Below are positions 30,945 to 58,597 of a stretch of 64,000 bases of DNA, in pieces. Under the pieces are notes generated by a model. That model saw nothing but the letters and a program-made list of their open reading frames with translations, ran no database searches and was not told where the DNA came from. How positions within the stretch are numbered: the first letter of the stretch is position 1; every line of letters starts with the position of its first letter. The position numbers and the translations under genes were made by a program. Origin of the DNA: Wenyingzhuangia aestuarii (GTDB lineage Bacteria > Bacteroidota > Bacteroidia > Flavobacteriales > Flavobacteriaceae); contig NZ_JAATJG010000010.1 of NCBI RefSeq assembly GCF_011927765.1, positions 62,001 to 126,000 of the forward strand, in the 5' to 3' direction.

Positions 30945-32753
30945 ATGAGAAAATATTTGAATTTTATATTCAAAGCTAAGACATACACGTTAAGTGTATG
31001 TCTTTTGCTTTTAAGTGTTTCTTGCCAACAAAAACCAGAAACAACCAAGTTACCAGCAATTAATAGGTTAGAAAAATTATATAGTAATCACCTAGAATTG
31101 GCATATCAGTATTTAGACAGTATTGATTTAGCAGCTGAAAACATCAACAACAAAAAATATTATATACAATCAAGAGCGCATTTTAAAAAAAGTGAACCTA
31201 TATTGTCTTATACAGAAAAAGAAAATTTTAAGTCTTTAAATGCTCCTAACTTATTAAAAATTCAAGAAGAAGACCCAACAGATATTAAAATTCATCAACC
31301 TATAGGATATCAAGTAATCGAAGAAACTTTATTTACAGAACCTATAGATTCTTTAGTCTTAACCAGAGCTATAAAAGTAACAAGTGGTCGATTAAAATTG
31401 ATAAAAAATAACAACCACTTAAAGCTTAAAAACTACCATGTTTTATGGTTGATTAGAGATGAATTGGTAAGAATTGCAACCACTGGACTTTCTAATTTTG
31501 ATTCCCCAGTATTAGGACAATCTTTAAAAGAATCGGCATACGCTTTTCAGACTTTAAAAGAGATTTTAAGTATTTATAAAGAAAATTTTAAAGATTTAAA
31601 ACTGTATGAAAATTGGCAGAAAGAATTGGAGTTAACAATTACTACTTTGGATGCTGATTTTGATAGTTTTGACAGATTTGGTTTTATAAAAAATCGCACA
31701 AAAAATCAAATAGCATTGTGGAATCATACAGTAACTGACTGGCAGGTAGAATTTCCTTTTGAAATAGCTTTATCTAATCATTTTGACTTGTTGTTTAGTG
31801 AAGATATGTTTAATCTATCTTATTTTGCAGATTATAAAAGTGATACAACGCATTTAAAACAAAAAGTTAAACTAGGAAAGGAGCTTTTTAATGACAAAAC
31901 ATTATCACTTAGCAATCAAATGTCTTGTGCTACTTGTCATGATAAAAAACTAGCTTTTACCGATAAAAAAAAAGTATTTAATAAACATCAAAAAAGAAAT
32001 ACACCAACACTTACTTATGCAGGTTTGCAGCAAGCTTTTTTTCACGATAGTAGAGCAGGTAGTTTAGAAGGGCAGATTGTTGGAGTGGTTACCAATCATA
32101 ATGAATTTGATTCTGATTTGGATATTTTGGTAGAAAAAGTCAAACAAAACAAAGCATACGTAAAAGCATTTGATTCTTTGTATTTAAAAAAAGTTACAGA
32201 TGCCAATATTAGACACGCTATTGCTTCTTATGTTAGAACGTTAAATAAATTCAATTCTAAATTTGATAACAATGTGAATGATTTAGAAAACACATTATCA
32301 CCTTCAGAAAAAAAAGGATTTAATTTGTTTATGGGGAAAGCTGCTTGTGCTACTTGTCATTTTCCTCCACTTTTTAATGGAACTGTACCTCCTAATTTTT
32401 CAGAATCTGAAATGGAAATTATAGGTGTTCCTAAAACTAATAAAAATCTAGATTTAGATGATGATTTAGGCAGGTATGAGTTGTTTAAAACAGAACAGAG
32501 AAAAGGAATGTTTAAAACTCCCACCGTTAGAAACATTGCTTTAACGGCTCCATACATGCACAATGGTGTGTACAATAATTTAGAACAAGTACTAGATTTT
32601 TACAACCAAGGAGGGGGAGCAGGTTTAGGGTTTGATGTCCCTCACCAAACCTTACCTTTTGATGAGTTGAATTTATCGGAACAAGAAATAAAGGACATTA
32701 TAGCCTTTATGAAAACCTTAACTGATGTGCCAGAAGAAAATAAAAATTATTAG
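30945..32753 (+). CDS. large di-heme cytochrome c peroxidase (CCP/MauG-type) lipoprotein, copy 1
   Basis: This 602-residue protein has a lipobox LSVSC (Cys27). Residues ~30-290 are a helical region containing a HFKKSEPIL...IGYQVIEETLF pattern that I have seen fused to CCP_MauG domains in Bacteroidota and that may be imelysin-like. Residues ~305-600 form a di-heme peroxidase domain with CATCH at 328-332 and CATCH at 468-472, and APYMHNG (Met/His ligand region) near 535. The family reduces H2O2 or oxidises protein or small-molecule targets using periplasmic electrons. It starts 4 bp after the DUF839 lipoprotein and carries a strong hairpin inside codons 10-22. Confidence 0.88.
   Translation: MRKYLNFIFKAKTYTLSVCLLLLSVSCQQKPETTKLPAINRLEKLYSNHLELAYQYLDSIDLAAENINNKKYYIQSRAHFKKSEPILSYTEKENFKSLNAPNLLKIQEEDPTDIKIHQPIGYQVIEETLFTEPIDSLVLTRAIKVTSGRLKLIKNNNHLKLKNYHVLWLIRDELVRIATTGLSNFDSPVLGQSLKESAYAFQTLKEILSIYKENFKDLKLYENWQKELELTITTLDADFDSFDRFGFIKNRTKNQIALWNHTVTDWQVEFPFEIALSNHFDLLFSEDMFNLSYFADYKSDTTHLKQKVKLGKELFNDKTLSLSNQMSCATCHDKKLAFTDKKKVFNKHQKRNTPTLTYAGLQQAFFHDSRAGSLEGQIVGVVTNHNEFDSDLDILVEKVKQNKAYVKAFDSLYLKKVTDANIRHAIASYVRTLNKFNSKFDNNVNDLENTLSPSEKKGFNLFMGKAACATCHFPPLFNGTVPPNFSESEMEIIGVPKTNKNLDLDDDLGRYELFKTEQRKGMFKTPTVRNIALTAPYMHNGVYNNLEQVLDFYNQGGGAGLGFDVPHQTLPFDELNLSEQEIKDIIAFMKTLTDVPEENKNY
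30972..31011 (+). promoter_or_regulatory. hairpin within the start of peroxidase gene 1
   Basis: A perfect 11-bp stem AAGACATACAC (30978-30988) / GTGTATGTCTT (30994-31004) with loop GTTAA is extended by AAAGC / GCTTT across a small internal loop, and is followed by T-rich sequence. It lies 34 nt inside the ORF and could attenuate or stabilise the operon message. Confidence 0.55.
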
Positions 32754-34640: not shown

Positions 34641-36458
34641 ATGGTAACTATGAATTTAAGAAACCTATTCATTTTAACTTTATTTTTTCTTACACTATTC
34701 TCTTGTGATACAAAAAAAGAGGAAACAACAATTGTAGATTGGTCTGTTGTACATGACTTTTATGTAGATAATTTAGACACAACTATTACTTTGTTAAATG
34801 ATTTGGATACATTACATATTCAATCTGCTAATAACCAAAAAGTATTTAAAAAAATAAGAACAACATTTAAACAATGCGAACCTTATGTTTCTTATTTAAA
34901 CCCCAAATCAGGTCATAAAGTAAATGGTCCAGCACTACCTATATTTAGAGAAAATAGTGGAAAATTGTTAGACCCTATAGGATTGCAAAAGTTAGAAGAA
35001 TCTATATTTCTAGGAGACACGGAAATAAAAGATTTTGCTGCCAATATAAACGTTACAAAGGGAATTTTAAGTACGGTAAAAAAAGAAGTGGTGTATTATA
35101 AAGTAAATGCCAAACGTTTTTTTATTGCTACACATCAACAATTATTAAGAATTATTAGTTTTTCTATGGCTGGGTTTGATACACCTGTAAGTGAATGGGG
35201 AATTAGCGAGGCTAAAATATCGTTGGAAAGTTTATTGTTTGTGTATCAAAATAGTATTCAAAAAATTATTATTGACAAAAATCCGATATTGGATAAGGAA
35301 TTAATACAGAATCTAAAAAGCGCTATTAATTTTATAAAACCCAATGTAAACTTTAAACAATTTGATCGGTTTTCATATATAAGAGATTATATAAATCCGA
35401 TAACAAGAGCTTGGGTTAAAGTTAAAAAAGAAAGCAATTTGTGGGAAGCTAGCGGAGTATATCCTTTTAATTTAGAGGCTCCTACTTTTTTTGAAAATGA
35501 TAGCTGGAATGTCAATCATTTTGCTTCTCCTAAAAATCAAAACTCAACAAAGGCACAAATTCAGTTAGGGCAAAAGTTGTTTAACGATGTCAACATCTCA
35601 AAAGGAGGAAAATTGTCTTGTGTAAGTTGTCACAATCCTAAAAAAGCATATGCAGATGGTTTGCAATTTTCAAAAGACAATACAGGAAAACTATTGTCAA
35701 GAAACTCTCCAACATTGGTAAATTCTATTTTTCAAAAAGCATTTTTTTGGGATGGAAAATCAGGAAATTTAAACGAGCAAATAAGCAATGTATTTGCAAA
35801 TGATAAAGAGTTTAACGTAACCGTACATCAATTTTCTGATGAAATTTTAGTAGACACCACTTACGTTAATCTTTTTAAAAAAGCTTACGGAAAAGTTCCC
35901 AAAAGCAATCATGATATTGTTAGAGCTATTGCATCTTATGTAGGCACGTTAAATGGTTTTAATTCTAAATTTGATAAAAATATTAGAGGAGAAGAAAACA
36001 CATATACAGCATCCGAAAAAAATGGATTTAATTTATTTATGGGAAAAGCCTTGTGTGCTACTTGCCATTTTATGCCTTTAACCAATGGTACGGTTCCTCC
36101 ATTTTTTACGGATACCGAAAAGGAAGCTATTGGAGTGGCAAAGACTTTTAAAAACAAAGAAATAGATAACGATTTAGGATACTATAATGCTTACAATCAA
36201 GAATATCATAAAAGAATGTTTAAAACCCCTACCATTAGAAACATTGCTTTAACGGCCCCGTACATGCACAATGGAGCTTATAATACGCTAGAACAAGTAC
36301 TTGATTTTTACAATAAAGGAGGGGGAGCTGGTTTAGGTTTTGATGCACCGAATCAGACCTTACCTTTTGATGCGTTGAATTTATCGGAACAAGAAATAAA
36401 GGACATTATAGCCTTTATGAAAACGTTAACCGATGTACCCGAAGATAAGGTATATTAA
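34641..36458 (+). CDS. large di-heme cytochrome c peroxidase lipoprotein, copy 2
   Basis: This 605-residue paralogue of the first peroxidase has lipobox LFSC in its signal peptide, the same N-terminal helical domain (FKQCEPYVSYLNPKSGHKVNGPALP...IGLQKLEESIF) and two heme sites, CVSCH at 327-331 and CATCH at 472-476, plus APYMHNG. The start at 34641 (MVTMNL) or 34650 (MNL) cannot be decided; both give a complete signal peptide. The last ~65 residues are almost identical to copy 1, with 51 identical bases (36374-36424 against 32666-32716). It is separated from its lipoprotein partner by a strong hairpin and is followed by a terminator. Confidence 0.88.
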   Translation: MVTMNLRNLFILTLFFLTLFSCDTKKEETTIVDWSVVHDFYVDNLDTTITLLNDLDTLHIQSANNQKVFKKIRTTFKQCEPYVSYLNPKSGHKVNGPALPIFRENSGKLLDPIGLQKLEESIFLGDTEIKDFAANINVTKGILSTVKKEVVYYKVNAKRFFIATHQQLLRIISFSMAGFDTPVSEWGISEAKISLESLLFVYQNSIQKIIIDKNPILDKELIQNLKSAINFIKPNVNFKQFDRFSYIRDYINPITRAWVKVKKESNLWEASGVYPFNLEAPTFFENDSWNVNHFASPKNQNSTKAQIQLGQKLFNDVNISKGGKLSCVSCHNPKKAYADGLQFSKDNTGKLLSRNSPTLVNSIFQKAFFWDGKSGNLNEQISNVFANDKEFNVTVHQFSDEILVDTTYVNLFKKAYGKVPKSNHDIVRAIASYVGTLNGFNSKFDKNIRGEENTYTASEKNGFNLFMGKALCATCHFMPLTNGTVPPFFTDTEKEAIGVAKTFKNKEIDNDLGYYNAYNQEYHKRMFKTPTIRNIALTAPYMHNGAYNTLEQVLDFYNKGGGAGLGFDAPNQTLPFDALNLSEQEIKDIIAFMKTLTDVPEDKVY

Positions 36459-43811: not shown

Positions 43812-44843
43812 TTAGGGAATTAAAACAGTAGAATTACGAACAATTAAATTGGTTTTTATTGCTACAGTTTTATAATCCATAAAATTTACGTTAGGATGGT
43901 CTATTTCATCAATTAAATAATTAATAGCAGTTTGTCCCACTTTAATTCCAGGCTGATTGATGGTGGTAATTTGAGGTTCTACTACTTGAGAAATTAAAGA
44001 GTTACTAAAACCTACAATAGCAATATCTTGTGGTACTTTAAGGTGGTGTTTCTTAAAAGTTTGCATAGCACCTACAGCACAACTATCTGTAATGCAAAAA
44101 ACAGCATCGGGTCTATTGGGGTTTTGTAAGAGTGTTTCGGCTAATATTCTTCCTTGTTCCATAGGAATATTTTTAGAACTTAGAATAATAGATTCATCAA
44201 CGGGAAGGTTATAGGTTTTTAAGGCTCTTAAATAACCTTCATATCGTCTCATAGAATTAAAAGAATCCTCGGTTTCTTTAAAAATGGCTATTCTTTTTTT
44301 TCCAATCTCTATCAAATGCTTTACGGCATTAAACCCGGCTTGTTCTTCATCAATAATAACTTGGGTACATGGTACTTTTCTAGAAACCTTATCAAACAAA
44401 ATTAAAGGAACTTGCTCTATGTATTTTATAATTTGATTTATGTTTTGTGTATCTCTAGTTAACGATAATAAAATTCCATCCACTCCTAAATGGATCATGG
44501 TATCTAACAATTCTATTTGCTTTTTATAACTGTCTTTAGATCCCATAATAATAACATGATAACCCTTCTTTTCGGCTTCATCTAAAATTCCTTCTAAAAG
44601 AGTAGAGGTATAGTAATGGGTAATGTTAGGAACCACAACCCCAATCATATGAGTTCTTTTATTTCTAAAACCCTGTGCAAATATATTGGGAAAATAATTT
44701 AGCTCTTTAGCTTTAGCTTTTACCAAGTTAATAGTTTCTTGACTAATGTCTTTGTGGTTTTTTAAAGACCTAGATACGGTAGATACAGATAGGTTTAAAG
44801 CTTCTGCTATATGTTTTAAAGTAACAGTTTGTCTTTTCTTCAT
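43812..44843 (-). CDS. LacI-family regulator of the glycosyl-glycerate locus
   Basis: This 343-residue protein has an N-terminal LacI-type HTH (VTLKHIAEALNLSVSTVSRSLKNH, ~5-28) with the hinge, and a periplasmic-binding-protein-like effector domain (HMIGVVVPNITHYYTSTLLEG, GILLSLTRDTQ, DAVFCITDSCAVGAM, IAIVGFSNSLISQVV). It is divergently transcribed from the TonB receptor gene, with a perfect LacI-type operator (44875-44890) between them, so it most likely represses the operon and itself. The inducer could be the imported solute or its hexose; this is inference from position. Confidence 0.92.
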   Translation of the reverse strand: MKKRQTVTLKHIAEALNLSVSTVSRSLKNHKDISQETINLVKAKAKELNYFPNIFAQGFRNKRTHMIGVVVPNITHYYTSTLLEGILDEAEKKGYHVIIMGSKDSYKKQIELLDTMIHLGVDGILLSLTRDTQNINQIIKYIEQVPLILFDKVSRKVPCTQVIIDEEQAGFNAVKHLIEIGKKRIAIFKETEDSFNSMRRYEGYLRALKTYNLPVDESIILSSKNIPMEQGRILAETLLQNPNRPDAVFCITDSCAVGAMQTFKKHHLKVPQDIAIVGFSNSLISQVVEPQITTINQPGIKVGQTAINYLIDEIDHPNVNFMDYKTVAIKTNLIVRNSTVLIP

Positions 44844-44874
44844 ACTTGTAAAATTAGTGTAATTAAATCTTTTT

Positions 44875-44890
44875 CCGCAAACGTTTGCGG
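44875..44890. promoter_or_regulatory. LacI-family operator
   Basis: CCGCAAACGTTTGCGG is a 16-bp perfect palindrome with the central AACGTT typical of GalR/LacI operators. It lies 32 bp from the lacI-type start and 88 bp from the TonB receptor start. A partial match (TTGCGTTTG) occurs at 44921-44929. Confidence 0.85.
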
Positions 44891-44933
44891 GTTGAATTTT
44901 GTAAATTATGTAATAATAACTTGCGTTTGTTGA

Positions 44934-44941
44934 TAATTTTG
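44934..44941 (+). promoter_or_regulatory. -7 promoter element of the TonB-receptor operon
   Basis: TAATTTTG fits TAnnTTTG and lies 37 bp before the ATG at 44978. No TTG is found at the usual -33 distance, as can occur when a promoter depends on an activator. Confidence 0.45.
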
Positions 44942-44977
44942 TGGTAGAACAATTTAATAACTATAAATACTGAAATC

Positions 44978-47629
44978 ATGAAGAAAATTATTTTTACAGT
45001 TTTGTGTACACTGTTTTATTTAAATAGCAATGCACAAACTAAGATTACGGGTACAGTTAAAGATGCAACAGGATTTCCTATTCCTTTAGCAAACGTAAAA
45101 ATTAAAGGAACTACATCTGGAACTACTTCGGATTTAGACGGTAACTTTTTAATTATTTCAAAAGCTACTGGAGAACAAACTATTGAAATTTCTAATATTG
45201 GAAATGAAACTTTTACCAAACTAATTACCTTAAATGGAAAGGCATTGGTTATAAATGCTACGTTAAAAGGAGGAGTTAGTAATTTAGAAGAAGTGGTACT
45301 AACAGCTTCTACTACGTTTAGGTCTCAAAAAGAAGCTCCCATGTCTATTAGTTCTGTAAAAGCAGCAGAAATTACTAAACTTTCGGCAAATAGTCAGGCA
45401 GATATTTTGCGTAGTGTACCTGGTATTACCGCAGAAGGTGGTGGTGGAGAGGTAGCTGCCAATGTATTTGTTAGAGGTTTGCCATCCGGAGGTCAATATG
45501 TATTTAATCCTTTACAATACGATGGAATGCCATTAATTAGTGCTTTTGGTTTAAACTCATCTGCGCATGATGTTTATGCGAGAACAGATATTGGTTTTAA
45601 AGGAGTAGAATTTGTACGTGGTGGATCTGCTATTTTATATGGTGCGGGTTCTGTAGCAGGTATTATTAATTACACAAGTAAAACGGGTGACACAGATCCA
45701 GGGAACATTGTTAATGTTGAATGGGCAAATGGAGGTAGAGTAAAAACCGATTTTTATAGCGGTGGTAAATTAGGAGGAAAAGATTCTGATACCTACTATG
45801 CTTTAACAGGATTTGTAAGATATGATGAAGGTCCTATTAATGTTGGATTGCCAACAAAAGGAGTACAATTAAGAGGAAATATTAAAAAGAAGTTTGACAA
45901 AGGTTCTTTTACCATGCACGGTCAGTTTATAGATGATAATGTTCAGTTTTATACAGGAATTCCTTTAGATGGAGATTCTAGAGAAAGATTAATTGGTAAC
46001 GATGGAAAAGAAGTAGAGCAATTAATGTCTAGTCAATTAGCTAACACATCATTCTTAACCCCTAATGGAAATTACACAAGTCCAATAGGAAACGGAGTTG
46101 CTACTAAAGGTGGTTATTTCTTAGGAGATTTTGATTACAGATTTGATAATGATTTAAAATTTAAAGCCAAAGCTAGATATGCAAAATACCAACACAGTTT
46201 TGCTTTATTAGGGGGAGCAGGTGATCCAATGACATTAAGTGATTTAGTAAATGATATTGATGCAAATAATACAGGATTTACTGCACAATATCAAGGAGGT
46301 GGAAATACATTAATAGATGGAAATACTAGAGTAGTTAGTAACAATTACACAGATAGAATTAGACCGATGACAGATTATTCTGGAGAAGCTTCTTTAACCA
46401 AAAAAATAGAGTTATCTACTACAGAACATAACATTACAGTAGGTACGTTTTTATCTAGAACAGAAGCAGAAGATGTAAACTATCAATATTCTTATTTGTC
46501 AGAATTTAACAACGACCCAAGATTGGTAAATTTAAGTTATACAGATGCTGTAGGGAACAATGTTATTTATTCTCAAGGAGGAATTTACAACAGAGCTGGG
46601 CAAACAGCTAACAAATATTTAGCACAAAACAGATCTGCATTTTATATAAGTGATGAAATTGTAATGGACAAATGGAGATTTGATGTTGGATTTAGAATAG
46701 AAAGTACCAATGGTGAATTTATGAATGGAAATATTGTAGAGTCTACGGTATATTCAGATCCAGAATTAACGAGCGAATTGGCAAATGTAAAAGGAGCAGA
46801 TGGAACTTTTACCAAAGGAGTAATTAGCGCAACAGACTGGGCAGCTTCTTTTGCAGCGTTGTATAAATTAAACGATACATTTAATTTATATGCAAACCTT
46901 TCTAAGGGATATTTCTTTCCACAATTAAGAAATTTTGCTCCTGTAGCAGGTATTCCAGAAACTAAATACGATTCTGAAAAAATATATCAGTTTGAGGTAG
47001 GTACAAAAATTAGTACAAGTAAATTTAGTGGAGCCATAGCTGCATATGCTGTTTTATTAGATGATAGAGTAAAATTAATTCAGGAAATTGATGGAACAGG
47101 ATTGTTAATAGACAAGTCTAGAGAAACACAAAGTACTCAAACTTTTGGAGTAGAATTAAATGGAGATTTAGAGCTTATAGAAAATTTACATTTAAGAGGA
47201 ACTGCTACTTTTCAAGAACATGAGTTAACAGAAAATTTAAGTGAAGATTTAGTAAATAACACAACAACTAGAACAAACGAAGGAAACGAATTGGCAAGAC
47301 AACCTAACTTTATAGGTAGTTTAGGATTGCACTATGACAATAGTAAATTTGATTCTAGTTTTACGGTAAACTACACAGGAAGTAAGTTTAACCAAGATGC
47401 TAATGAAGTGGAATTAGATGCGATTACCATTGCCCGTATCAATGCAGGATATACATTTGATATGGAAAATGCTAAAACGTTAAGATTAGGAGCTTCAATA
47501 TTCAACTTATTTGATAGTGATGGAGTGACAGAAGGAAACCCAAGAGGAAATTCTGTTTCAGGAAATTTCTTTAAAGGAAGACCAATTTTACCAAGAAGAT
47601 TCTTCTTAACAGCATCATTCAATTTTTAA
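44978..47629 (+). CDS. TonB-dependent receptor for the glycosyl-glycerate locus
   Basis: This 883-residue outer-membrane protein has a signal peptide (~1-20), a carboxypeptidase-like N-terminal domain (~21-105, TGTVKDATGFPIPLANVKIKGT), a plug domain (~115-235, SQADILRSVPGITAEGG and VEFVRGGSAILYGAG), and a 22-strand-type barrel ending in Phe (TASFNF). No SusD gene follows, so it should take up a small ligand, as TonB receptors for siderophores or oligosaccharides do. It is the first gene of the operon and is followed by a terminator-like hairpin before the hydrolase gene. Confidence 0.93.
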   Translation: MKKIIFTVLCTLFYLNSNAQTKITGTVKDATGFPIPLANVKIKGTTSGTTSDLDGNFLIISKATGEQTIEISNIGNETFTKLITLNGKALVINATLKGGVSNLEEVVLTASTTFRSQKEAPMSISSVKAAEITKLSANSQADILRSVPGITAEGGGGEVAANVFVRGLPSGGQYVFNPLQYDGMPLISAFGLNSSAHDVYARTDIGFKGVEFVRGGSAILYGAGSVAGIINYTSKTGDTDPGNIVNVEWANGGRVKTDFYSGGKLGGKDSDTYYALTGFVRYDEGPINVGLPTKGVQLRGNIKKKFDKGSFTMHGQFIDDNVQFYTGIPLDGDSRERLIGNDGKEVEQLMSSQLANTSFLTPNGNYTSPIGNGVATKGGYFLGDFDYRFDNDLKFKAKARYAKYQHSFALLGGAGDPMTLSDLVNDIDANNTGFTAQYQGGGNTLIDGNTRVVSNNYTDRIRPMTDYSGEASLTKKIELSTTEHNITVGTFLSRTEAEDVNYQYSYLSEFNNDPRLVNLSYTDAVGNNVIYSQGGIYNRAGQTANKYLAQNRSAFYISDEIVMDKWRFDVGFRIESTNGEFMNGNIVESTVYSDPELTSELANVKGADGTFTKGVISATDWAASFAALYKLNDTFNLYANLSKGYFFPQLRNFAPVAGIPETKYDSEKIYQFEVGTKISTSKFSGAIAAYAVLLDDRVKLIQEIDGTGLLIDKSRETQSTQTFGVELNGDLELIENLHLRGTATFQEHELTENLSEDLVNNTTTRTNEGNELARQPNFIGSLGLHYDNSKFDSSFTVNYTGSKFNQDANEVELDAITIARINAGYTFDMENAKTLRLGASIFNLFDSDGVTEGNPRGNSVSGNFFKGRPILPRRFFLTASFNF

Positions 47630-47660
47630 AAAGACCTATAGTTAAGTTTATTTAAGTTAT

Positions 47661-47701
47661 GCTCATCACCTTATCTTATGTAAGGTTGGTGGTGAGCTTT
47701 T
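47661..47701 (+). terminator. intra-operon terminator-like hairpin
   Basis: A 10-bp stem GCTCATCACC / GGTGGTGAGC with one G-U pair has an inner CTTA/TAAG stem and is followed by TTTT. It sits between the receptor and hydrolase genes and could lower downstream expression relative to the receptor. Confidence 0.6.
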
Positions 47702-47713
47702 AACAATACAATT

Positions 47714-49027
47714 ATGAAAAAATTAGAAAACGAAGCCAAAAGAGTATTACTAAAAAACTGGAAAGACGGTTTTAGTGTGCCTTGTGCAAATTTATATCCT
47801 TTTCAATGGAAATGGGATTCAGGATTTATCGCTATCGGTTTTGCTCATTTTGATATGGACAAAGCAGAAAAAGAAATAGCTACTTTATTAGCCGCTCAAT
47901 GGGATAACGGATTTATTCCTCACATTGTATTCCATACAGAAAGTGATACCTATTTTCCTGGACCAGATTTTCATCAATCGGAATTGCATCCACAATCTTC
48001 TAAAACTTATAAATCTACAGGAATGACACAGCCTCCTGTTACAGGTTTTGTCTTAGAAGAAATGTACAACATAAGCACCAACAAAACAGCTACGCTAGCG
48101 TATATCAATTCTATGATAGATAAGGTATACCACAATCACACTTATTTTTATGAGAACAGAGATCCTAATAACGAGGGGTTAGTGTACATCTATCATAACT
48201 GGGAATCGGGAACAGATAATTCTCCTATTTGGGATGATATTTTTGCGACAATGAATCCGCCACATTATGAGTTTAAAAGAAGAGATACCACGCATGTAGA
48301 TGCATCGGAACGTCCTACCAATAGAGAATACGATCATTATTTACACATTATCAATATTGCCAAAGAGCATAATTATAGTGATGAAAAAATAGCAGAGCTT
48401 TCTCCATTTTTAGTACAAGATCCTTTGTTTAACACTATGCTAATCAAATCTAACGAAGCATTAATCAACCTATATAAATTAATAGGAGGAAATGTCGATA
48501 AAATAGCACAGCTTACCCAATGGAACACCAAAGCTGTACATAGCATGAATACAAAGTTGTACGATAAAGATTTAAAAGTATATGTCCATTATGATTTAAG
48601 AAATGAGAAGCCAATTCCTTTTATTACTTCTTCTTCTTTTTCTCCAATATTTGCCAATATTGCTACTACCCCAGAACAAGTAAAAGGTCTTGTTGATGTA
48701 ATGTTAGACAAATTTGGAGGAGAAGATATGTACTTATGTGCTTCTTTTGATCCTACCAACGAACTTTTTAATCCTAAGAAATATTGGAGAGGTCCTGTTT
48801 GGGTAAACCTAAACTGGATGTTGTATAGAGGTTTAAGAAAATATGGCTATAACGAGGTAGCCGATAGAGTTAAAAACGATACGCTAGAAATAGTTGAAAA
48901 AAGTGGATTTTATGAGTATTTTGATGCTAGAAAATCGGTACACCTAACGGACAAAGCCGGATACGGTGGTGGAGATTTTTCTTGGACTGCAGCATTGCTA
49001 ATAGACTTGTTACAGAATAAAATTTAA
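47714..49027 (+). CDS. GH63-family mannosylglycerate/glucosylglycerate hydrolase
   Basis: This 437-residue protein has no signal peptide, so it is probably cytoplasmic. It has the (alpha/alpha)6 fold features of GH63 glycosyl-glycerate hydrolases: PFQWKWDSGF near the N-terminus, WESGTDNSPIWDD with Asp168 as likely general acid, RGPVWVNLNWMLYRGL, and YEYFDARK with Glu401 as likely base. Known bacterial MGH/GgH enzymes have a similar length (about 430-450) and catalytic Asp/Glu positions. They release mannose or glucose from 2-O-alpha-glycosyl-D-glycerate. The downstream glycerate kinase supports this substrate class. The choice between the mannosyl and glucosyl forms is open. Confidence 0.8.
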   Translation: MKKLENEAKRVLLKNWKDGFSVPCANLYPFQWKWDSGFIAIGFAHFDMDKAEKEIATLLAAQWDNGFIPHIVFHTESDTYFPGPDFHQSELHPQSSKTYKSTGMTQPPVTGFVLEEMYNISTNKTATLAYINSMIDKVYHNHTYFYENRDPNNEGLVYIYHNWESGTDNSPIWDDIFATMNPPHYEFKRRDTTHVDASERPTNREYDHYLHIINIAKEHNYSDEKIAELSPFLVQDPLFNTMLIKSNEALINLYKLIGGNVDKIAQLTQWNTKAVHSMNTKLYDKDLKVYVHYDLRNEKPIPFITSSSFSPIFANIATTPEQVKGLVDVMLDKFGGEDMYLCASFDPTNELFNPKKYWRGPVWVNLNWMLYRGLRKYGYNEVADRVKNDTLEIVEKSGFYEYFDARKSVHLTDKAGYGGGDFSWTAALLIDLLQNKI

Positions 49028-49067
49028 GTTTTTAAAAACAAACTAATAATCACATAAACACAATATT

Positions 49068-50720
49068 ATGAACTGGTTAGACTACATAATAGTAATTACA
49101 TACATTCTTTTCTTTTTAGGAATGGGCTTCTTTTTTAAGGAAAACAAAAACTCTAAAGACTATTTTTTAGGAGGTAAAAGTTTAGGGTGGTTTCCTTTGA
49201 GTTTGTCTACAATGGCTACGCAATTATCGGCCATAAGTTTTATTTCTGCACCTGCTTTTGTAGGGTTAAAATTAGGGGGAGGTATGAAATGGTTAACGTT
49301 TGAATTTGCCGTGCCATTGGCCATGATTTTTATAATGATTGTGATTGTACCACCGCTGTTTAGATCGGGAGTTGTAAGTATTTACGAGGTGGTAGAAAAA
49401 CGTTTTAGTGCATCTACCCGATTAATTTTAAGCATTGTTTTTCAAATTAGCAGGGCTTTAGGTACGGGAGTAATGGTGTATACCATTGCTATTATTTTAC
49501 AAGCTGTTTTAGATATAGATTTTGTGTATACTATTTTAATAGTAAGTGTAATTACCATTATTTACTCTTGGCAAGGGGGGATGAAAGCTGTGGTTTGGGG
49601 AGATGCTATTCAAATGATTATTTTGGTTTTAGGATTGATTATTTGTTTAACCATAGGATGGAATTTATTACAAGACAATGGTGGTTTGCCAAATGGTTTT
49701 GATGCGCAAAGATTAGAAGTGATAGATTGGAATATGGGAATTGGAGAAGGAAACGATTATGGTTTTTTACCCATGCTTATAGGAGGTTTCTTTTTATATG
49801 TTTCATACTACGGATGTGATCAAACACAAGCACAAAGATTGTTGTCTAGTAAAGATGAAGGAACCATTAGAAAATTATTGTTAGCCAACGGATTGTTAAG
49901 ATTTCCAGTTGTATTAGTGTATTGTATTATGGGATTGGTAATTGGTGGTTTGGTAAGTGTAGCTCCAGGATTCTTAGAAGATATTGCAGCAACTACCCAA
50001 AAACATTTCCCCATAGCTTTTGAAAAAACAGGAATCAAACCAGATTTAATGTTACCTGTATTTATTATGAGGTATTTACCCAATGGATTGATAGGAATTT
50101 TAATGGTAGGGATTCTTTCAGCAGCCATGTCTTCTTTAAGTTCCACCATTAATTCTTTATCGGCTGTAACGGTAGAAGATTTTTTTAACAGAGGAAAATC
50201 TAAAGATACGCTAAGTAGTAAAAAGTACATGATGATTTCTAAATTGGCCGTTGTTTTTTGGGGAGTGGTATGTATTAGTTGTGCCTTTTTGTTTGGAGGC
50301 AGTAAAAGTGCGGTTATAGAAATTATCAATGCTATTGGTTCTGTTTTTTACGGACCTGTATTAGTAACTTTTGTATTGGCTTTCTTTTCTAAAAAAGTAA
50401 ATCACATTGGTATGAATGTAGGTATTATATCAGCAGTATTAATCAACCTTGTGTTTTCTAAAACCATGCAAGAATTGTTTCATATAGATTTAGGAATTCA
50501 CATTTTTTGGATTTGGTTAAACTTTACCGGAGTAATTATTGCCTTAATAGTTGCTTACGGAGTAAGTGCACTTACCAAAAATGTAAAAATAAATCAGTTA
50601 ATGGAAGTGAACTTTACGCTTAAAAAGAAAGACTTTTTAATTAAAGAAGTGTATATATTATTAGCCTTTTTTGTAATTATTATTGCGTTCAGTTTTTTTA
50701 TTCCCACTTTATTAAGCTAG
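49068..50720 (+). CDS. SLC5/SSS-family sodium:solute symporter
   Basis: This 550-residue inner-membrane protein has about 13-14 helices and the SSS features DYFLGGKSLGWFPLSLS (~31-48), GWFPLSLSTMATQLSAISFI, SWQGGMKAVVWGDAIQM and AAMSSLSSTINSLSAVTVEDF. These are typical of SGLT-type sugar or solute symporters coupled to Na+. It should import the ligand, or the released hexose, across the inner membrane. The gene sits 40 bp after the hydrolase gene and 4 bp before the glycerate kinase gene. Confidence 0.92.
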   Translation: MNWLDYIIVITYILFFLGMGFFFKENKNSKDYFLGGKSLGWFPLSLSTMATQLSAISFISAPAFVGLKLGGGMKWLTFEFAVPLAMIFIMIVIVPPLFRSGVVSIYEVVEKRFSASTRLILSIVFQISRALGTGVMVYTIAIILQAVLDIDFVYTILIVSVITIIYSWQGGMKAVVWGDAIQMIILVLGLIICLTIGWNLLQDNGGLPNGFDAQRLEVIDWNMGIGEGNDYGFLPMLIGGFFLYVSYYGCDQTQAQRLLSSKDEGTIRKLLLANGLLRFPVVLVYCIMGLVIGGLVSVAPGFLEDIAATTQKHFPIAFEKTGIKPDLMLPVFIMRYLPNGLIGILMVGILSAAMSSLSSTINSLSAVTVEDFFNRGKSKDTLSSKKYMMISKLAVVFWGVVCISCAFLFGGSKSAVIEIINAIGSVFYGPVLVTFVLAFFSKKVNHIGMNVGIISAVLINLVFSKTMQELFHIDLGIHIFWIWLNFTGVIIALIVAYGVSALTKNVKINQLMEVNFTLKKKDFLIKEVYILLAFFVIIIAFSFFIPTLLS

Positions 50721-50724
50721 TCCT

Positions 50725-51855
50725 ATGAAATTTGTAATAGCCCCCGATAAATATAAAGGTTCCTTAACAGGAAGTGAGTTTTGCAAAGCTGTGGAAACAG
50801 GAATTAACAAAGCATTACCTAATGCAGAATTTGTGCACATTCCTTTAGCAGATGGAGGAGACGGAACCATGGATGCCTTATTGCACAGTTTACAAGGAGA
50901 AAAAGTAAAGGTTACTGTACAGAACCCTTTGTTTAAAAAAGTAACTGCCAATTATGTATGGGTAAAAGAAAAGCAATTGGCAGTTATAGAAATGGCAGAA
51001 GCTTCGGGTTTAAGCTTACTCAGTTCAGCTGATAGAAATTGTATGTATACTTCTAGTATAGGTACAGGAGAACTAATTGTAGATGCTTTGGAAAAAGGAG
51101 CAAAAACCATTGTGTTAGGAATAGGAGGAAGCGCTACTAACGATGGTGGAATGGGAATGGCTACAGCCTTAGGTTATCAGTTTTTAGATCAAAATAATCA
51201 AGTTTTACAACCAATAGGAGCAAACTTAAACAAGGTAGCTAGTGTAGATGATACGATTGTACATCCATTGTTAAAAGCAGCAAATATTAAGGTAGCTTGT
51301 GATGTTAAAAATCCTTTGTATGGTAAAAATGGAGCTGCATTTATTTATGCTGCTCAAAAAGGAGCATCTCCATCAGAAATAGAAACTTTAGATCAAGGAT
51401 TGCAGTGTTTTTCAAAAGTATTGTTAAATCAATACAAGATAGATTGTCAACAAATAGAAGGTGCGGGAGCTGCTGGTGGAATGGGAGCAGGAGCTGTGGT
51501 GTTTTTAAATGGAACGCTAACTTCTGGAATTGCATTGGTGAAAGAAATTACCAATTTTGAGGTACTTATAAAAGATGCTGACTGGATTATTACAGGTGAA
51601 GGAATGTTAGACAATCAGACCTTTTCTGGAAAAACAATAGCGGGAGTTTTAAGCACAGCAAATCAACAAAAAATTCCGGTTGCTGCCTTTTGTGGAAGTG
51701 TAGCTATTACGGAAGCTGAACAAGAACAATTAGGAATAACCTATGTAACAGCTGTATTAAAAAATGTTGTGGATATGAATACAGCTATGCTTACAGCTTA
51801 TGAGAATTTAGTGTTTAGCACATATAATTTTGCAAAGCTGATTAAAAGAAATTAA
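50725..51855 (+). CDS. glycerate kinase (GlxK/GarK family)
   Basis: This 376-residue cytoplasmic enzyme begins KFVIAPDKYKGSLTGSEFC and contains PLADGGDGTMDALLH, VLGIGGSATNDGGMGMATALG, ACDVKNPLYGKNGA, GAGAAGGMGAG and WIITGEGMLDNQTFSGKT, all marks of the type-I glycerate kinase family. It phosphorylates D-glycerate, usually at the 2-position, feeding glycolysis. Its place at the end of the operon after the GH63 enzyme explains where its substrate comes from. A strong terminator follows. Confidence 0.95.
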   Translation: MKFVIAPDKYKGSLTGSEFCKAVETGINKALPNAEFVHIPLADGGDGTMDALLHSLQGEKVKVTVQNPLFKKVTANYVWVKEKQLAVIEMAEASGLSLLSSADRNCMYTSSIGTGELIVDALEKGAKTIVLGIGGSATNDGGMGMATALGYQFLDQNNQVLQPIGANLNKVASVDDTIVHPLLKAANIKVACDVKNPLYGKNGAAFIYAAQKGASPSEIETLDQGLQCFSKVLLNQYKIDCQQIEGAGAAGGMGAGAVVFLNGTLTSGIALVKEITNFEVLIKDADWIITGEGMLDNQTFSGKTIAGVLSTANQQKIPVAAFCGSVAITEAEQEQLGITYVTAVLKNVVDMNTAMLTAYENLVFSTYNFAKLIKRN

Positions 51856-51895
51856 GACTTTAGTTTTCTTAAGAAACTTACAAGTCTGTTTCGTA

Positions 51896-51929
51896 AAAAG
51901 AGCCAATCGTATATACGATTGGCTCTTTT
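51896..51929. terminator. bidirectional terminator after the glycerate kinase gene
   Basis: A perfect 17-bp inverted repeat (arms 51896-51912 and 51913-51929), reading AAAAGAGCCAATCG and its complement with a short loop, closes the operon 40 bp after its stop. Confidence 0.9.
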
Positions 51930-54393: not shown

Positions 54394-54554
54394 AATACTT
54401 AAAATATTTTGGGTTAAATTTTATAAGCGATTTTTTCGCCTTTCTGTATTTAAGACTCTTAAGCTTAAATCTACCCTATAGTTTTTTTGTTTTTTTTGAT
54501 GAAAAAAATATAATTACCTGAAAATGTGTGAATCATAGATGAATTTTTTATTCC

Positions 54555-54562
54555 TACTTTTG
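54555..54562 (+). promoter_or_regulatory. -7 element of the ECF sigma gene
   Basis: TACTTTTG fits TAnnTTTG and lies 28 bp before the chosen ATG at 54590. An in-frame ATG at 54539 would lie upstream of this promoter. Confidence 0.55.
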
Positions 54563-54589
54563 TGCAAATCTACATTATATAGAGAATTT

Positions 54590-55111
54590 ATGAAGAAACC
54601 AAAGCATAAACTTTGCGAAGAATCTTATTTTAATAGCTTTTATCTAAAGCATATTCAGGCAGTAAGTAATTTTGCTTTTTATAAATGTGGAAACAATGCT
54701 GCTTCTTTAGATTTGGTACAAGATGCCTTTGCTAAAATATGGGAAAATTGTGCTAAGATTGATTTTGAAAAAGCAAAGACCTACTTATTTACAACAGTAA
54801 ATAATTTATTTTTAAATACCATAAGGCATCAAAAGGTAGTAATGTCTTATGCAAAAGAATCTCCCTATATAGATAAAACGAATCTTAATCCTGAGTATAT
54901 AATGGAAGAGGAGGAGTTTAAACAAAAACTATTAACAACTATTGCAGATTTAAGCGAAGAACAAAGAGAAGTTTTTTTATTAAACAGAATAGAAGGAAAA
55001 AAATATAGAGAAATAGCAGAATTGCTAGGGATATCACAAAAAACAGTAGAAAAAAGAATGTCTTTAGCCTTAAAATTTCTGCGTAATAAAATAGATAAAG
55101 TAAATATTTAA
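54590..55111 (+). CDS. ECF sigma factor (FecI-like)
   Basis: This 173-residue sigma-70 family protein has region 2 (YFNSFYLKHIQAVSNFAFYK...LVQDAFAKIWEN) and region 4 (LTTIADLSEEQREVFLLNRIEGKKYREIAELLGISQKTVEKRMSLALKFLR pattern). I chose the ATG at 54590 (MKKPKHKL) because a Bacteroidota -7 box lies at 54555-54562; an upstream in-frame ATG at 54539 precedes it. It is followed by a FecR-type anti-sigma factor and a TonB receptor with an STN domain, so it should respond to a ligand sensed at the cell surface. Confidence 0.93.
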   Translation: MKKPKHKLCEESYFNSFYLKHIQAVSNFAFYKCGNNAASLDLVQDAFAKIWENCAKIDFEKAKTYLFTTVNNLFLNTIRHQKVVMSYAKESPYIDKTNLNPEYIMEEEEFKQKLLTTIADLSEEQREVFLLNRIEGKKYREIAELLGISQKTVEKRMSLALKFLRNKIDKVNI

Positions 55112-55167
55112 ACCCTAGTATAGGGTATTCTACAGTATAGGTGTCTTAATTATAGAAAGCATTGATA

Positions 55168-56082
55168 ATGAATAAAGAAAATGACATATTAAAATGGTTT
55201 GAGGGAGAAATTTCTACAGAAAAGATGGAACAAAAGTATCCTGATGAAGATTTTTCAACCCTTAAAAAAGCAGGTTTTTATGCAAAGCAAATAGAAACTC
55301 CAAAAATTGATGCCGAAAAAGCATTGGAACAGTTTAAAACCAGATCTTTTCATAAAAAAGAAACCAAAGTAGTTTCTTTGAATACTCAGTTATTCTTAAA
55401 AATAGCAGCTATTTTAGTTTTGATATTTGGAGTTTCATACTTTTTCTTTTTTAGCAATACAGAAGTTTATAGAACAGAAATTGCTCAAACAGAAACCTTA
55501 TTTTTACCTGATAATTCTGAGGTTGTGTTAAATGCACAATCTAAATTAAATTACAATAAAAAAGAATGGCAAAATAACAGAACGTTAAAGCTAAATGGAG
55601 AAGCTTTTTTTAAAGTAACCAAAGGAAACAAATTTACAGTTCTTACCAATTCAGGAAGTATTCAGGTACTAGGAACGCAATTTAATGTAAAAGAGCGTGA
55701 ACGTTATTTTGAAGTTCAATGTTATGAGGGTTCAGTAAGTGTAACATACCAGCAGAATAAAACAATTTTATTACCAGGGAAATCTTTTAGAGTGTTGAAT
55801 GGAAAAGTTGTTAGTGCAAAAGATTTTAATAACGAAAACCCATCGTGGTTAGCACAAGAAACTACTTTTGAGAATGTTCCTTTATGGCAAGTAATTAACG
55901 AACTAGAAATACAATACAATATAAAAATAGAGGCTAAAACGGTAGATGTAACTAAAATGTTTACAGGAAGTTTTACACATACCAATCAAAATATAGCCTT
56001 GCAATCGGTAACCATTCCACTTAAATTAAGTTATAAAATACAAGGAGATAAAGTTGAGTTTTATGACTATGAAACAAAGTAA
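55168..56082 (+). CDS. FecR-type anti-sigma factor
   Basis: This 304-residue protein has a short cytoplasmic N-terminus with a sigma-binding segment (~5-60), one membrane helix (FLKIAAILVLIFGVSYFFFF, ~74-94), then the periplasmic FecR domain (LPDNSEVVLNAQSKLNYNKKEW, VLGTQFNVKERERYFEVQCYEGSVSVTY) and a C-terminal DUF4974 domain (FENVPLWQVINELEIQYNIKIEA). I chose the ATG at 55168 over a TTG at 55162. It lies 56 bp after the sigma gene, and its 3' end overlaps the receptor gene. Confidence 0.92.
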   Translation: MNKENDILKWFEGEISTEKMEQKYPDEDFSTLKKAGFYAKQIETPKIDAEKALEQFKTRSFHKKETKVVSLNTQLFLKIAAILVLIFGVSYFFFFSNTEVYRTEIAQTETLFLPDNSEVVLNAQSKLNYNKKEWQNNRTLKLNGEAFFKVTKGNKFTVLTNSGSIQVLGTQFNVKERERYFEVQCYEGSVSVTYQQNKTILLPGKSFRVLNGKVVSAKDFNNENPSWLAQETTFENVPLWQVINELEIQYNIKIEAKTVDVTKMFTGSFTHTNQNIALQSVTIPLKLSYKIQGDKVEFYDYETK

Positions 56083-58597
56083 ACTGTTATTTATTTTATG
56101 TGTTGCCTATAGTTGTTTTTCTTTTGCCATTCCAAGGCAAGAAAAAATACAACTCATTCATCTACTTCCTAAATTAGAAGCTAAGTTTGATGTAAAGTTT
56201 TCTTATGCTGTAGAAGATGTAACCGAAGTTTGGGTAACAACCCCAAATGAAAATTTTACCTTAAAGCAAGTTGTAGCTTTTTTAAATAGCTCTACCATTT
56301 TAAATTTTAAGTTTTTAACAGAGCGTTATATTACAGTGTCTACTTTGCAAAAAACAATAACTATTTGTGGAGTTTTAAGAACTAAAAATAAAGCCCCCAT
56401 TGTTGGAGCTTCTGTAATGGTTGTTAATACAGGCAAAGGAATAGTAACCAATGTAAATGGGAACTTTAAATTAGAAAATATTGATGTAAATGCAGATATA
56501 CGTATTTCTTATTTTGGGTATCAAACTTTAAATTTAAAAGCAAAAGAAATAAGAACTTGTAAAGAAATTGAGTTATTAGAACAGGCAGAAATGCTAAATC
56601 CAATAGTAATATCTAAGTTTTTAACTACGGGTTTACAAAAACGCATGGATGGTAGTACTGTTTTAAATACAGAAAAGTTTGGAGTTTTACCAGGGCTTAC
56701 AGATCCAGATGTCTTACAATCTATTCAGGCATTACCAGGGGTAGAAAGTGTAAACGAAAGCATAGCTAACATCAATGTACGAGGTGGGAGTAATGATCAG
56801 AATTTAATTCTTTGGGATGGAATTAAAATGTATCATGCAGGACATTTTTTTGGATTGATTTCTGCCTACAATCCTAATTTAACTAATAAAGTAGTGGTTA
56901 CTAAAAACGGAACTTCTAGTGAGTTTAGTGATGGAGTTTCTAGTACCATTAACATGTTTACAAAGGATGAAATAGGAAAAGAAATTAAAGGAGGTTTTGG
57001 ATTAAACCTATTAAATACAGATGCTTTTTTAGAAATTCCCATTAGTAAAAAAATGGCTGTTCATGTTTCCGGAAGACGATCTTTTACCGATGTGTACACC
57101 TCTCCAACTTACAATACGTATTTTAAAAGAAGTTTTCAGGATAGTCAATTAACCAATACTGAAAATATTAATGAAAGCAATAAATCTTCAGACTTTTACT
57201 TTTATGATTATACGGCCAAATTGTTGTATTACATCAATTCAAAACACAAAATAAGAGCCAATATCATCGGGATTTATAACAATCTAGATTATTTAGAAAG
57301 TTATACGGATGCTCAAAACCAAACAACTTCTAAAACCAATAATTTACAACAGCAAAATTTTGGAGCAGGTTTTCAATGGAATGCCATTTGGACGAGTAAA
57401 TTCACCACAGATGTTGTGGCTTTTTACTCAAAATACAATATTGATGCAGTGGATTATAGAATAGAATCCGATCAAAAATTAACCCAAGCCAATGAGGTGA
57501 TAGAAACGGGTCTAAAGTTGAATACGAGGTATAAAATCCATCAGAATGTATCTTTTTTAAATGGATATCAATTTAGCGAAACTGGAATTTTAAATCAGAC
57601 TACGGTAAATCTTCCTTCTTATTCAAAAACCAAAAAAGATGTTTTGTTAAATCATGCCTTGTTTAGCGAAATTGAATTTAACAACAGAAATACTTATATA
57701 AGACTAGGGCTTAGAGTCAATTATTTTCAAAAGTTTAACAAGTTTATTATAGAGCCTAGGTTAAATTTTAGACAAAAATTAAATAAACAATGGGCTGTAA
57801 AACTTCAGGGTGAGTTTAAAAATCAATCTGCTACTCAGGTGATTGATTTTCAAGATAATTTTTTAGGAGTTGAAAAAAGACGTTGGATTTTAGCCAACAA
57901 TCAAGACATTCCAATTTCTAAAAGTAAACAAGGTTCTTTAGGGTTGGAATATCATCATCATAATTGGGTCTTAAGTACTGATGGGTTTTACAAACTTGTT
58001 GATGGGATTACGGCTTCTAATCAAGGATTTTACAATAGTTTTCAAAACCTAAGTGCCACGGGAAGTTACCAAGTAAAAGGAATAGAGTTTTTAGTCAATA
58101 AAACAGCACATAAATACAGTACTTGGTTTAGTTATACATATAGTGTAAATCAATATGAGTTTAAGAGCTTTATCCCTTCAGTTTTTCCAAATAATGTAGA
58201 TATCAAACACTCTGTTTCTATGGCTTTTAATTATTACTTGTTAGAAAACTTAGAACTTTCTTTGGGAGGAATTTTAAGGTCTGGACAACCCTATACTAAG
58301 CCCATTGAGGGAGAAGAAACCATTCAGAACGGAAACAATACGGTTGTGAATTACGATGTGCCAAACAATGAAAACTTAGCAAGTTTTATGAGGTTAGATG
58401 CTTCGTTAAAATATCATTTTAAATGGTCTAACTCCATTAAGAGTTCTTTAATTGTAGGAGTGATGAATGTTACCAATAGAGAAAACATCATCAATAGATA
58501 TTACCAAGTAGATCCTAATAATTCAGGTGTTGCTATTCAAGTAAATCATAAATCCTTAGGATTTATGCCTAATGTGAGTTTAAGAATTAAGTTTTAA
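56069..58597 (+). CDS. TonB-dependent receptor with STN signalling domain
   Basis: This outer-membrane protein of ~842 residues (chosen start MKQSKLLF at 56069, which overlaps the FecR gene's end by 14 bp) has a signal peptide, an STN domain at ~15-90 (KIQLIHLLPKLEAKFDVKFSYAVED), a carboxypeptidase-like domain at ~95-175 (ICGVLRTKNKAPIVGASVMVV), a plug at ~195-310 (VLQSIQALPGVESVNESIANINVRGGSNDQN) and a barrel ending SLRIKF. The STN domain contacts the FecR-type anti-sigma factor, so ligand binding should switch on the ECF sigma factor. No SusD partner is present. The ligand is unknown. Confidence 0.93.
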   Translation: MKQSKLLFILCVAYSCFSFAIPRQEKIQLIHLLPKLEAKFDVKFSYAVEDVTEVWVTTPNENFTLKQVVAFLNSSTILNFKFLTERYITVSTLQKTITICGVLRTKNKAPIVGASVMVVNTGKGIVTNVNGNFKLENIDVNADIRISYFGYQTLNLKAKEIRTCKEIELLEQAEMLNPIVISKFLTTGLQKRMDGSTVLNTEKFGVLPGLTDPDVLQSIQALPGVESVNESIANINVRGGSNDQNLILWDGIKMYHAGHFFGLISAYNPNLTNKVVVTKNGTSSEFSDGVSSTINMFTKDEIGKEIKGGFGLNLLNTDAFLEIPISKKMAVHVSGRRSFTDVYTSPTYNTYFKRSFQDSQLTNTENINESNKSSDFYFYDYTAKLLYYINSKHKIRANIIGIYNNLDYLESYTDAQNQTTSKTNNLQQQNFGAGFQWNAIWTSKFTTDVVAFYSKYNIDAVDYRIESDQKLTQANEVIETGLKLNTRYKIHQNVSFLNGYQFSETGILNQTTVNLPSYSKTKKDVLLNHALFSEIEFNNRNTYIRLGLRVNYFQKFNKFIIEPRLNFRQKLNKQWAVKLQGEFKNQSATQVIDFQDNFLGVEKRRWILANNQDIPISKSKQGSLGLEYHHHNWVLSTDGFYKLVDGITASNQGFYNSFQNLSATGSYQVKGIEFLVNKTAHKYSTWFSYTYSVNQYEFKSFIPSVFPNNVDIKHSVSMAFNYYLLENLELSLGGILRSGQPYTKPIEGEETIQNGNNTVVNYDVPNNENLASFMRLDASLKYHFKWSNSIKSSLIVGVMNVTNRENIINRYYQVDPNNSGVAIQVNHKSLGFMPNVSLRIKF

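Follow-up and report, generated by a model that had tools for sequence, protein, structure and literature searches.

Small algal osmolytes are thought to form a large and quickly used pool of marine carbon, and for many of them the receptors are unassigned. The closest described systems come from marine Flavobacteriia: the passages of PMC8072126 on this subject, citing Barbeyron et al. 2016, describe homologues of the Zobellia galactanivorans digeneaside degradation genes in Maribacter dokdonensis 62-1, and those of Kappelmann et al. 2018 (PMC6298971) name digeneaside among the possible substrates of polysaccharide utilization loci (PULs) of North Sea flavobacteria. As to enzymes, the glucosylglycerate hydrolase of Mycolicibacterium hassiacum (MhGgH) hydrolyses both glucosyl- and mannosylglycerate, according to the part of PMC6608630 that deals with its substrates; for outer-membrane uptake, the passages of PMC5507952 on TonB-dependent receptors (TBDTs) predict such receptors for sucrose and beta-glucosides only. 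In this study we analyze positions 43812-51929 of a window of 64,000 nucleotides (the whole stretch of DNA under study) from Wenyingzhuangia aestuarii, where a LacI-family gene stands divergent from the genes of a TBDT, a glycoside hydrolase of family 63 (GH63), a sodium:solute symporter (SSS/SLC5) and a glycerate kinase.

An earlier note, made from the letters of the window alone, had read this interval as an operon for the uptake and breakdown of a glycosyl-glycerate. The layout it described, namely LacI gene, operator, TBDT without a SusD partner, GH63, SSS and glycerate kinase genes and terminator, is there as described, with all genes open and in their places (Table 1). The draft genome (3.53 Mb, 43 contigs) has the operon on contig C10. 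The reading itself gains support, with the GH63 protein nearest to mannosylglycerate and glucosylglycerate hydrolases (MgH and GgH), the glycerate-contact residues kept and the gene order widespread. Judging from sequence, we put at about 0.8 the probability that this is a LacI-controlled operon for the uptake and breakdown of an external 2-O-alpha-glycosyl-D-glycerate, be it mannosylglycerate (digeneaside), glucosylglycerate or both. Gene identities, active-site residues, conservation of the operon and of its operator, and the linkage of TBDT to GH63 were computed directly.

On this basis we infer transport, substrate, inducer and repression rather than activation, as follows. The TBDT would carry the small anionic glycoside across the outer membrane, and the symporter would bring it into the cytoplasm, probably with sodium. 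The GH63 enzyme would split it by an inverting mechanism, with Asp168 as acid and Glu401 as base, into hexose and D-glycerate; inspection of its N-terminus by eye shows no export signal, which suggests that hydrolysis is cytoplasmic. The kinase would then convert D-glycerate into phosphoglycerate, probably 2- rather than 3-phosphoglycerate, for glycolysis, and the hexose would be handled by general enzymes encoded elsewhere in the genome (ROK kinase, ManA). LacI would bind the palindrome between the divergent genes, with release probably by substrate or product.

Enzyme and transport genes of the operon

The family of the hydrolase is clear, since PF22422 (MGH1-like) matches it over the full profile (1-356) with 306 bits against a cut-off of 27. 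Among PDB sequences it is closest to the Thermus thermophilus HB8 enzyme Tt8MgH (2z07, 2.6e-87) and to MhGgH (chain 6g3n, 7.2e-59), with the trehalase 2jf4 at 0.025; identity is 37.9% to Tt8MgH over 409 columns and 30.4% to MhGgH over 401 columns. Residue roles in MhGgH, including 19 named substrate-contact positions, were taken from the relevant sections of the structure paper PMC6608630, the chain numbering being that of the paper plus two. Asp168 and Glu401 align with the catalytic Asp182 and Glu419 of MhGgH, and 18 of the 19 contact positions are identical, among them this catalytic pair and all the direct contacts to glycerate (Tyr36, Trp40, Tyr88, Arg216, Tyr375). At the nineteenth, Phe422 stands for Gln434; Tt8MgH has Phe as well, and so does MhGgH chain 6g3n itself at position 434, the Gln being seen in chain 5ohc. 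All 19 positions are invariant across the window and 17 sampled loci of relatives, and Met replaces Gln106 in two of five more distant Bacteroidota sequences.

The predicted fold points the same way. For structure prediction we aligned the window's proteins with 35 of 58 TBDTs and 25 of 58 GH63 proteins, and the GH63 model (AF2, pLDDT 84.8, from 26 sequences) gave first 20 Foldseek matches that are all Tt8MgH or MhGgH entries, with E values of 1.8e-27 for Tt8MgH (4wvb) and 2.9e-25 for MhGgH, followed by E. coli YgjK at about 1e-11 and trehalases at about 1e-10 to 1e-9. The comparison with MgH and GgH enzymes that the earlier note had proposed therefore finds them nearest by sequence and by predicted fold, with trehalases far off and the glycerate-binding residues kept, and on these grounds the protein belongs to the MgH/GgH group. 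The phylogeny proposed along with it gives no placement between MgH and GgH enzymes: in a tree of 33 rows (17 of the 80 named loci described below, eight other loci of the family, five other Bacteroidota loci, the window and two PDB sequences, two outgroup rows being left out) Tt8MgH and MhGgH sit on long branches at deep forks without support, identity favouring Tt8MgH.

The kinase is over the cut-offs of both PF02595 and TIGR00045 and is thus a type II glycerate kinase; its match among solved structures is 3cwc at 3.5e-81, and it is the only gene of the PF02595 family found in the genome. The symporter likewise passes TIGR00813, which places it at the level of the SSS/SLC5 family; its nearest solved structures are iodide and monocarboxylate symporters and 5nv9, which we take to be a sialic acid symporter, then multivitamin and glucose cotransporters, all too distant to speak of specificity. 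Downstream of the kinase, the terminator hairpin folds with a z of -7.15, a stability reached by none of 200 shuffles, and its palindrome occurs once within the window. A consensus-motif scan did not list this terminator at 51896-51929, the scan itself being no richer than its own shuffles (promoter-like 32 vs 45.1, terminator-like 4 vs 5.0).

A Pfam scan found no SusD-like gene among the five operon genes, and the only other open reading frame (ORF) of at least 100 amino acids in the interval is antisense, inside the SSS gene. The TBDT scores 76.9 bits with the SusC model TIGR04056, below its cut-off of 368.25. A canonical SusC/SusD PUL was rejected on these two grounds.

Table 1. Features of the operon, with the separate glucosylglycerate cluster of the same genome (L104, on contig C1 of genome G000)
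Feature	Position	Strand	Remarks
LacI-family regulator	43812-44843	-	PF00356, PF13377, PF00532; divergent from operon
Operator, perfect 16-base palindrome CCGCAAACGTTTGCGG	44875-44890	.	core 44877-44888
Candidate Bacteroidota -7 element TAATTTTG	44934-44941	+	weak; 44 bases upstream of TBDT start
SusD-less TBDT	44978-47629	+	PF13715 (CarboxypepD_reg-like), PF07715 (plug), PF00593 (barrel); signal peptide by eye
Predicted GH63 glycosyl-glycerate hydrolase (MGH1-like)	47714-49027	+	PF22422 5.5e-91; catalytic Asp168, Glu401
SSS/SLC5 sodium:solute symporter	49068-50720	+	PF00474; TIGR00813 203.9 bits, cut-off 184
Type II glycerate kinase (GarK/GlxK family)	50725-51855	+	PF02595 452.5 bits, 1.4e-135; TIGR00045 441.3 bits, cut-off 168.45
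Intrinsic terminator hairpin, T-rich 3' side	51896-51929	+	by folding, -22.9 kcal/mol
Putative glucosylglycerate cluster: MPGP-family phosphatase, MOFRL glycerate kinase, GpgS-like synthase, GH13_18-type enzyme	L104:4992-9870 (G000:C1, about 181.5-186.4 kb)

Receptor, regulator and gene order in relatives

Relatives of the operon were sought in a species-genome collection (84,980 species by its description), from which the best 80 of 552 confirmed stretches were kept as named loci; 69 of them, with 4.5 kb or more of sequence to either side of GH63, are called well-flanked, the 11 with short flanks being left out. In these 69 the SSS gene follows GH63 every time, the kinase is present in 68, LacI in 62 and the TBDT in 59, and all four stand together in 59, a recurrence that puts the gene order beyond chance; the earlier note had proposed to look for this order in other marine Flavobacteriaceae, and the outcome is in its favour. 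Named hosts include Zobellia, Maribacter (with M. polysiphoniae), Cellulophaga, Aquimarina, Winogradskyella, Algibacter, Olleya, Lutibacter, Tenacibaculum and Flavobacterium. In a draw of 394 genomes across the phylum, 19 have a GH63 match (E <= 1e-30), seven within Flavobacteriaceae and 12 outside.

The strongest association is that of the receptor. We searched 347 Flavobacteriaceae genomes for GH63 at E <= 1e-60 and for the TBDT at E <= 1e-150, the draw being the same for both as judged from the genome identifiers, and found GH63 in 50, the TBDT in 29 and both in 28 (Fisher p 1.7e-26); in each of the 28, the GH63 match begins 81-194 bp downstream of the TBDT match. The exception is genome G288, where the TBDT is cut by a contig end, so that its downstream neighbour is out of view; this genome has no GH63 at E <= 1e-60, and the 7.6 kb in front of the TBDT hold no match to LacI or any other reference gene.

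The operator is conserved across relatives. Its core, GCAAACGTTTGC, has its only exact copy in the 3.53 Mb genome at this locus, and in 62 related LacI-TBDT spacers it is perfect in 39, within one mismatch in 50 and within two in 54; the eight spacers at three or more mismatches include some that are very short through ORF calling. Shuffling gave two mismatches in 10 of 3,100 spacers and never fewer. Another exact AACGTT is found at a distance of 12 bases in 40 of 62 upstream regions (the window plus 61 loci), the window itself having one. The LacI gene keeps the same place in relatives, with 42-81% identity, and its helix-turn-helix and sugar-binding domains, with the palindromic operator at its own locus, make it by sequence a local regulator of the LacI family. 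For the promoter, we take TAnnTTTG to be the Bacteroidota -7 element; it occurs at -20 to -70 in 17 of the 62 upstream regions against 57 of 1240 shuffles, and the candidate before the TBDT has an identical offset in loci L020 and L021; we grade the motif as weak.

Some relatives carry additional genes; one of the comparisons took these up only if on the same strand and within 350 bp. W. heitensis has a GH97 gene between GH63 and SSS (L011:10280-12283; same gene in L020), near retaining alpha-galactosidases with 666 bits against a cut-off of 800; as a guess, an alpha-galactosidase here might attack floridoside, which is likewise an osmolyte of red algae. A GNAT acetyltransferase-like gene comes right after GH63 in 17 of the 80 named loci (e.g. 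L012:10805-11407), and a gene of the peptidase S66 (LD-carboxypeptidase) type follows SSS in L076, L083, L086 and L097 of the Allomuricauda/Flagellimonas group, the L076 copy being the one scanned with profiles. Two SSS ORFs in the operon of L027 and two TBDT ORFs in that of L059 may be split or duplicated genes.

Elsewhere in the window, at 30945-32753 and 34641-36458, lie two large di-haem cytochrome c peroxidase (MauG-like) genes, each after a large gene with poor or no Pfam match. At 54539-58597 an ECF sigma factor, a FecR-like anti-sigma protein and a TBDT stand in a row by eye, which would make a signalling receptor set with no evident tie to the operon.

Other possible substrates and the organism's probable own osmolyte

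Several observations weigh against an operon for external glycosyl-glycerate, and part of them concern the enzyme. On the GH63 protein, the trehalase profile PF01204 (55.9 bits, cut-off 21) and the GH63 C-terminal profile PF03200 (35 bits, cut-off 22.4) pass as well, and NF047898, the glucosylglycerate hydrolase equivalog, reaches 324 bits of the 550 at its cut-off, which places the protein in the wider MgH/GgH group and outside the equivalog. The passing of PF01204 and PF03200, the fold common to GH63 and GH37, and the GH97 gene of W. heitensis would suit an enzyme for another small alpha-glycoside, such as trehalose, sucrose-like or glucosylglycerol compounds, with glycerate not among its products. 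We hold this very improbable, in view of the 306 bits of PF22422, the kept glycerate contacts and the glycerate kinase in 68 of 69 well-flanked loci; besides, MhGgH does not hydrolyse glucosylglycerol, as the substrate section of PMC6608630 has it. The narrower reading as a trehalase (GH37) or general alpha-glucosidase was rejected, with 2jf4 at 0.025 against 2.6e-87 for Tt8MgH, PF01204 far below PF22422 and fold matches many orders weaker.

The other adverse points concern receptor and regulator. The TBDT is missing from 22 of the 50 GH63 genomes and from 10 of the 69 well-flanked loci, so an outer-membrane receptor is not obligatory; the genomes are related and not independent, and the Fisher value hence overstates the number of separate events, though the adjacency of TBDT and GH63, being independent of the p value, holds despite relatedness. 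The predicted TBDT model is of moderate confidence (pLDDT 74.3) with a poor plug, and its nearest solved folds are mainly siderophore receptors (FhuA/FoxA/FecA-type), which does not identify the ligand. As to the regulator, allowing one mismatch to the operator gives 4 sites in the genome, where a backwards control gives 10, and hence no sign of a wider regulon. Those siderophore-type folds, and the 22 genomes that do without the receptor, would fit a TBDT that imports something else, a metal chelate or cofactor, and owes its place in the operon to chance or to nothing more than co-regulation; this seems unlikely to us, because 28 of the 29 TBDT genomes carry GH63, in each case as the next gene downstream, and because the operator immediately precedes the TBDT.

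What remains where the receptor is missing is also informative. Twelve of the 22 TBDT-less GH63 genomes were read (11 plus the locus L017), and all 12 keep GH63, SSS and kinase, so the receptor looks like an added uptake module; in eight (L017, L108, L109, L111, L113, L116, L117, L118) this core is divergent from a murQ-like gene, labelled by eye. LacI is a matter separate from the receptor, since some loci (L046, L071, L081, L110) have LacI and no TBDT.

The residues of the predicted glycosyl-glycerate hydrolase fit either hexose, because MhGgH takes both substrates, and the neighbouring genes of relatives were considered instead. ManA stands directly after the kinase in seven of the 80 named loci (Algibacter, Aquimarina twice, Lacinutrix, Olleya, Winogradskyella, Dokdonia) and in L114, two scanned copies being over the NCBIfam cut-off and the rest called by BLAST, and a cupin phosphomannose isomerase follows the kinase in two of the 80; these isomerases favour mannose as product, i.e. 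mannosylglycerate (digeneaside). On the side of glucose, Lutibacter sp. B1 (L082) has a sucrose-phosphorylase-like gene between SSS and kinase, with a relative 1.7 kb after GH63 in genome G186. We label the type GH13_18 because the sucrose phosphorylase model matched below its cut-off and because, of the solved structures, sucrose and glucosylglycerol phosphorylases come closest to the copy in the window's genome. GH13_18 includes glucosylglycerate phosphorylase in the account of it given in PMC11009771, so that the genes of L082 and G186 would favour glucose and weigh against mannosylglycerate. Of the earlier note's choice, mannosyl- or glucosyl-glycerate, the glycosyl-glycerate group stands; the sequence does not say which of the two, and neighbour genes point both ways. 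For the hexose we keep both in view, with a lean to mannosylglycerate.

The same genome carries a separate cluster (last row of Table 1) that, going by its gene content, probably makes and recycles the organism's own glucosylglycerate, its GpgS-like match being below cut-off (320 of 700 bits); ManA is found beside a GH2 gene, with a ROK kinase nearby. The operon might accordingly be thought to turn over the cell's own glucosylglycerate, as the mycobacterial GgH does, its receptor only re-capturing leaked solute, since the organism probably makes this solute, and a phosphorylase gene of like kind is found within the GH63 operon or next to it in two relatives (L082, G186). This we regard as rather improbable. 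A phosphorylase and a kinase are already part of that cluster; G001 and G004 of the same genus have the phosphorylase and no GH63, which shows that GH63 is not needed for it; only four of the 50 GH63 genomes of the family have the phosphorylase at E <= 1e-120 (G000, which is the window's, G008, G185 and G186); and a TBDT with a substrate-type regulator fits import. Given a separate cluster for making and recycling glucosylglycerate, the operon probably serves a foreign substrate. Within Wenyingzhuangia, GH63 was found in two of seven genomes (one of the seven 85% complete), the window's and G002, which together with the separate cluster marks the operon as an accessory trait apart from own-osmolyte metabolism. 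A wider proposal, on which we find the balance even, is that in marine Flavobacteriaceae the SusD-less TBDT subfamily is dedicated to glycosyl-glycerates and could serve as a marker gene for the use of red-algal digeneaside, with two routes side by side in the window's organism: own glucosylglycerate by GpgS, GpgP and phosphorylase, foreign osmolyte by receptor and GH63.

Comparison with known systems

The enzymatic part of the operon was to be expected and is partly in print, and the core idea, digeneaside degradation by marine Flavobacteriia, is already there as a genome prediction in the passages cited of PMC8072126 and PMC6298971. The earlier note had taken the outer-membrane step as one it did not know to be described; this holds to the extent that the literature passages on digeneaside, mannosylglycerate and glucosylglycerate gave no receptor assigned to glycosyl-glycerates, in a search that left most subscription literature outside and so does not show absence from print, while the degradation itself had been predicted before. 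What is new is that TBDT and GH63 are linked almost exclusively and that the operator is conserved, together with the ManA and phosphorylase genes added in some relatives, which have a bearing on the hexose, and with a separate cluster for the organism's probable own osmolyte. A dedicated TBDT subfamily is a useful new prediction from sequence comparison, its assignment to the outer-membrane step perhaps being new. With a receptor subfamily that hardly occurs except next to a glycosyl-glycerate hydrolase, osmolyte flux could be read from genomes and metagenomes, and one could readily test why a solute of this small size should require active uptake across the outer membrane.

Set beside the described systems, the operon shares bacterial family and proposed substrate with the predicted genes of Zobellia galactanivorans and Maribacter dokdonensis 62-1, as far as the passages of PMC8072126 describe them, and it is present in Zobellia amurskyensis, Z. 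uliginosa, Z. barbeyronii and several Maribacter species. The North Sea PULs likewise belong to marine Flavobacteriia with digeneaside as a possible substrate; however, that study (PMC6298971), going by its title and abstract, works with SusC/SusD proteins, whereas the operon here has a single TBDT and no SusD. Among enzymes of solved structure, Tt8MgH (2z07/4wva) is of the same GH63 subgroup, alike at all 19 positions including Phe422. MhGgH (5ohc) has the same fold and catalytic pair as the GH63 protein here, but carries Gln434 where Phe stands in the latter, and its role is in the recovery from nitrogen starvation, where it acts on solute of the cell itself.

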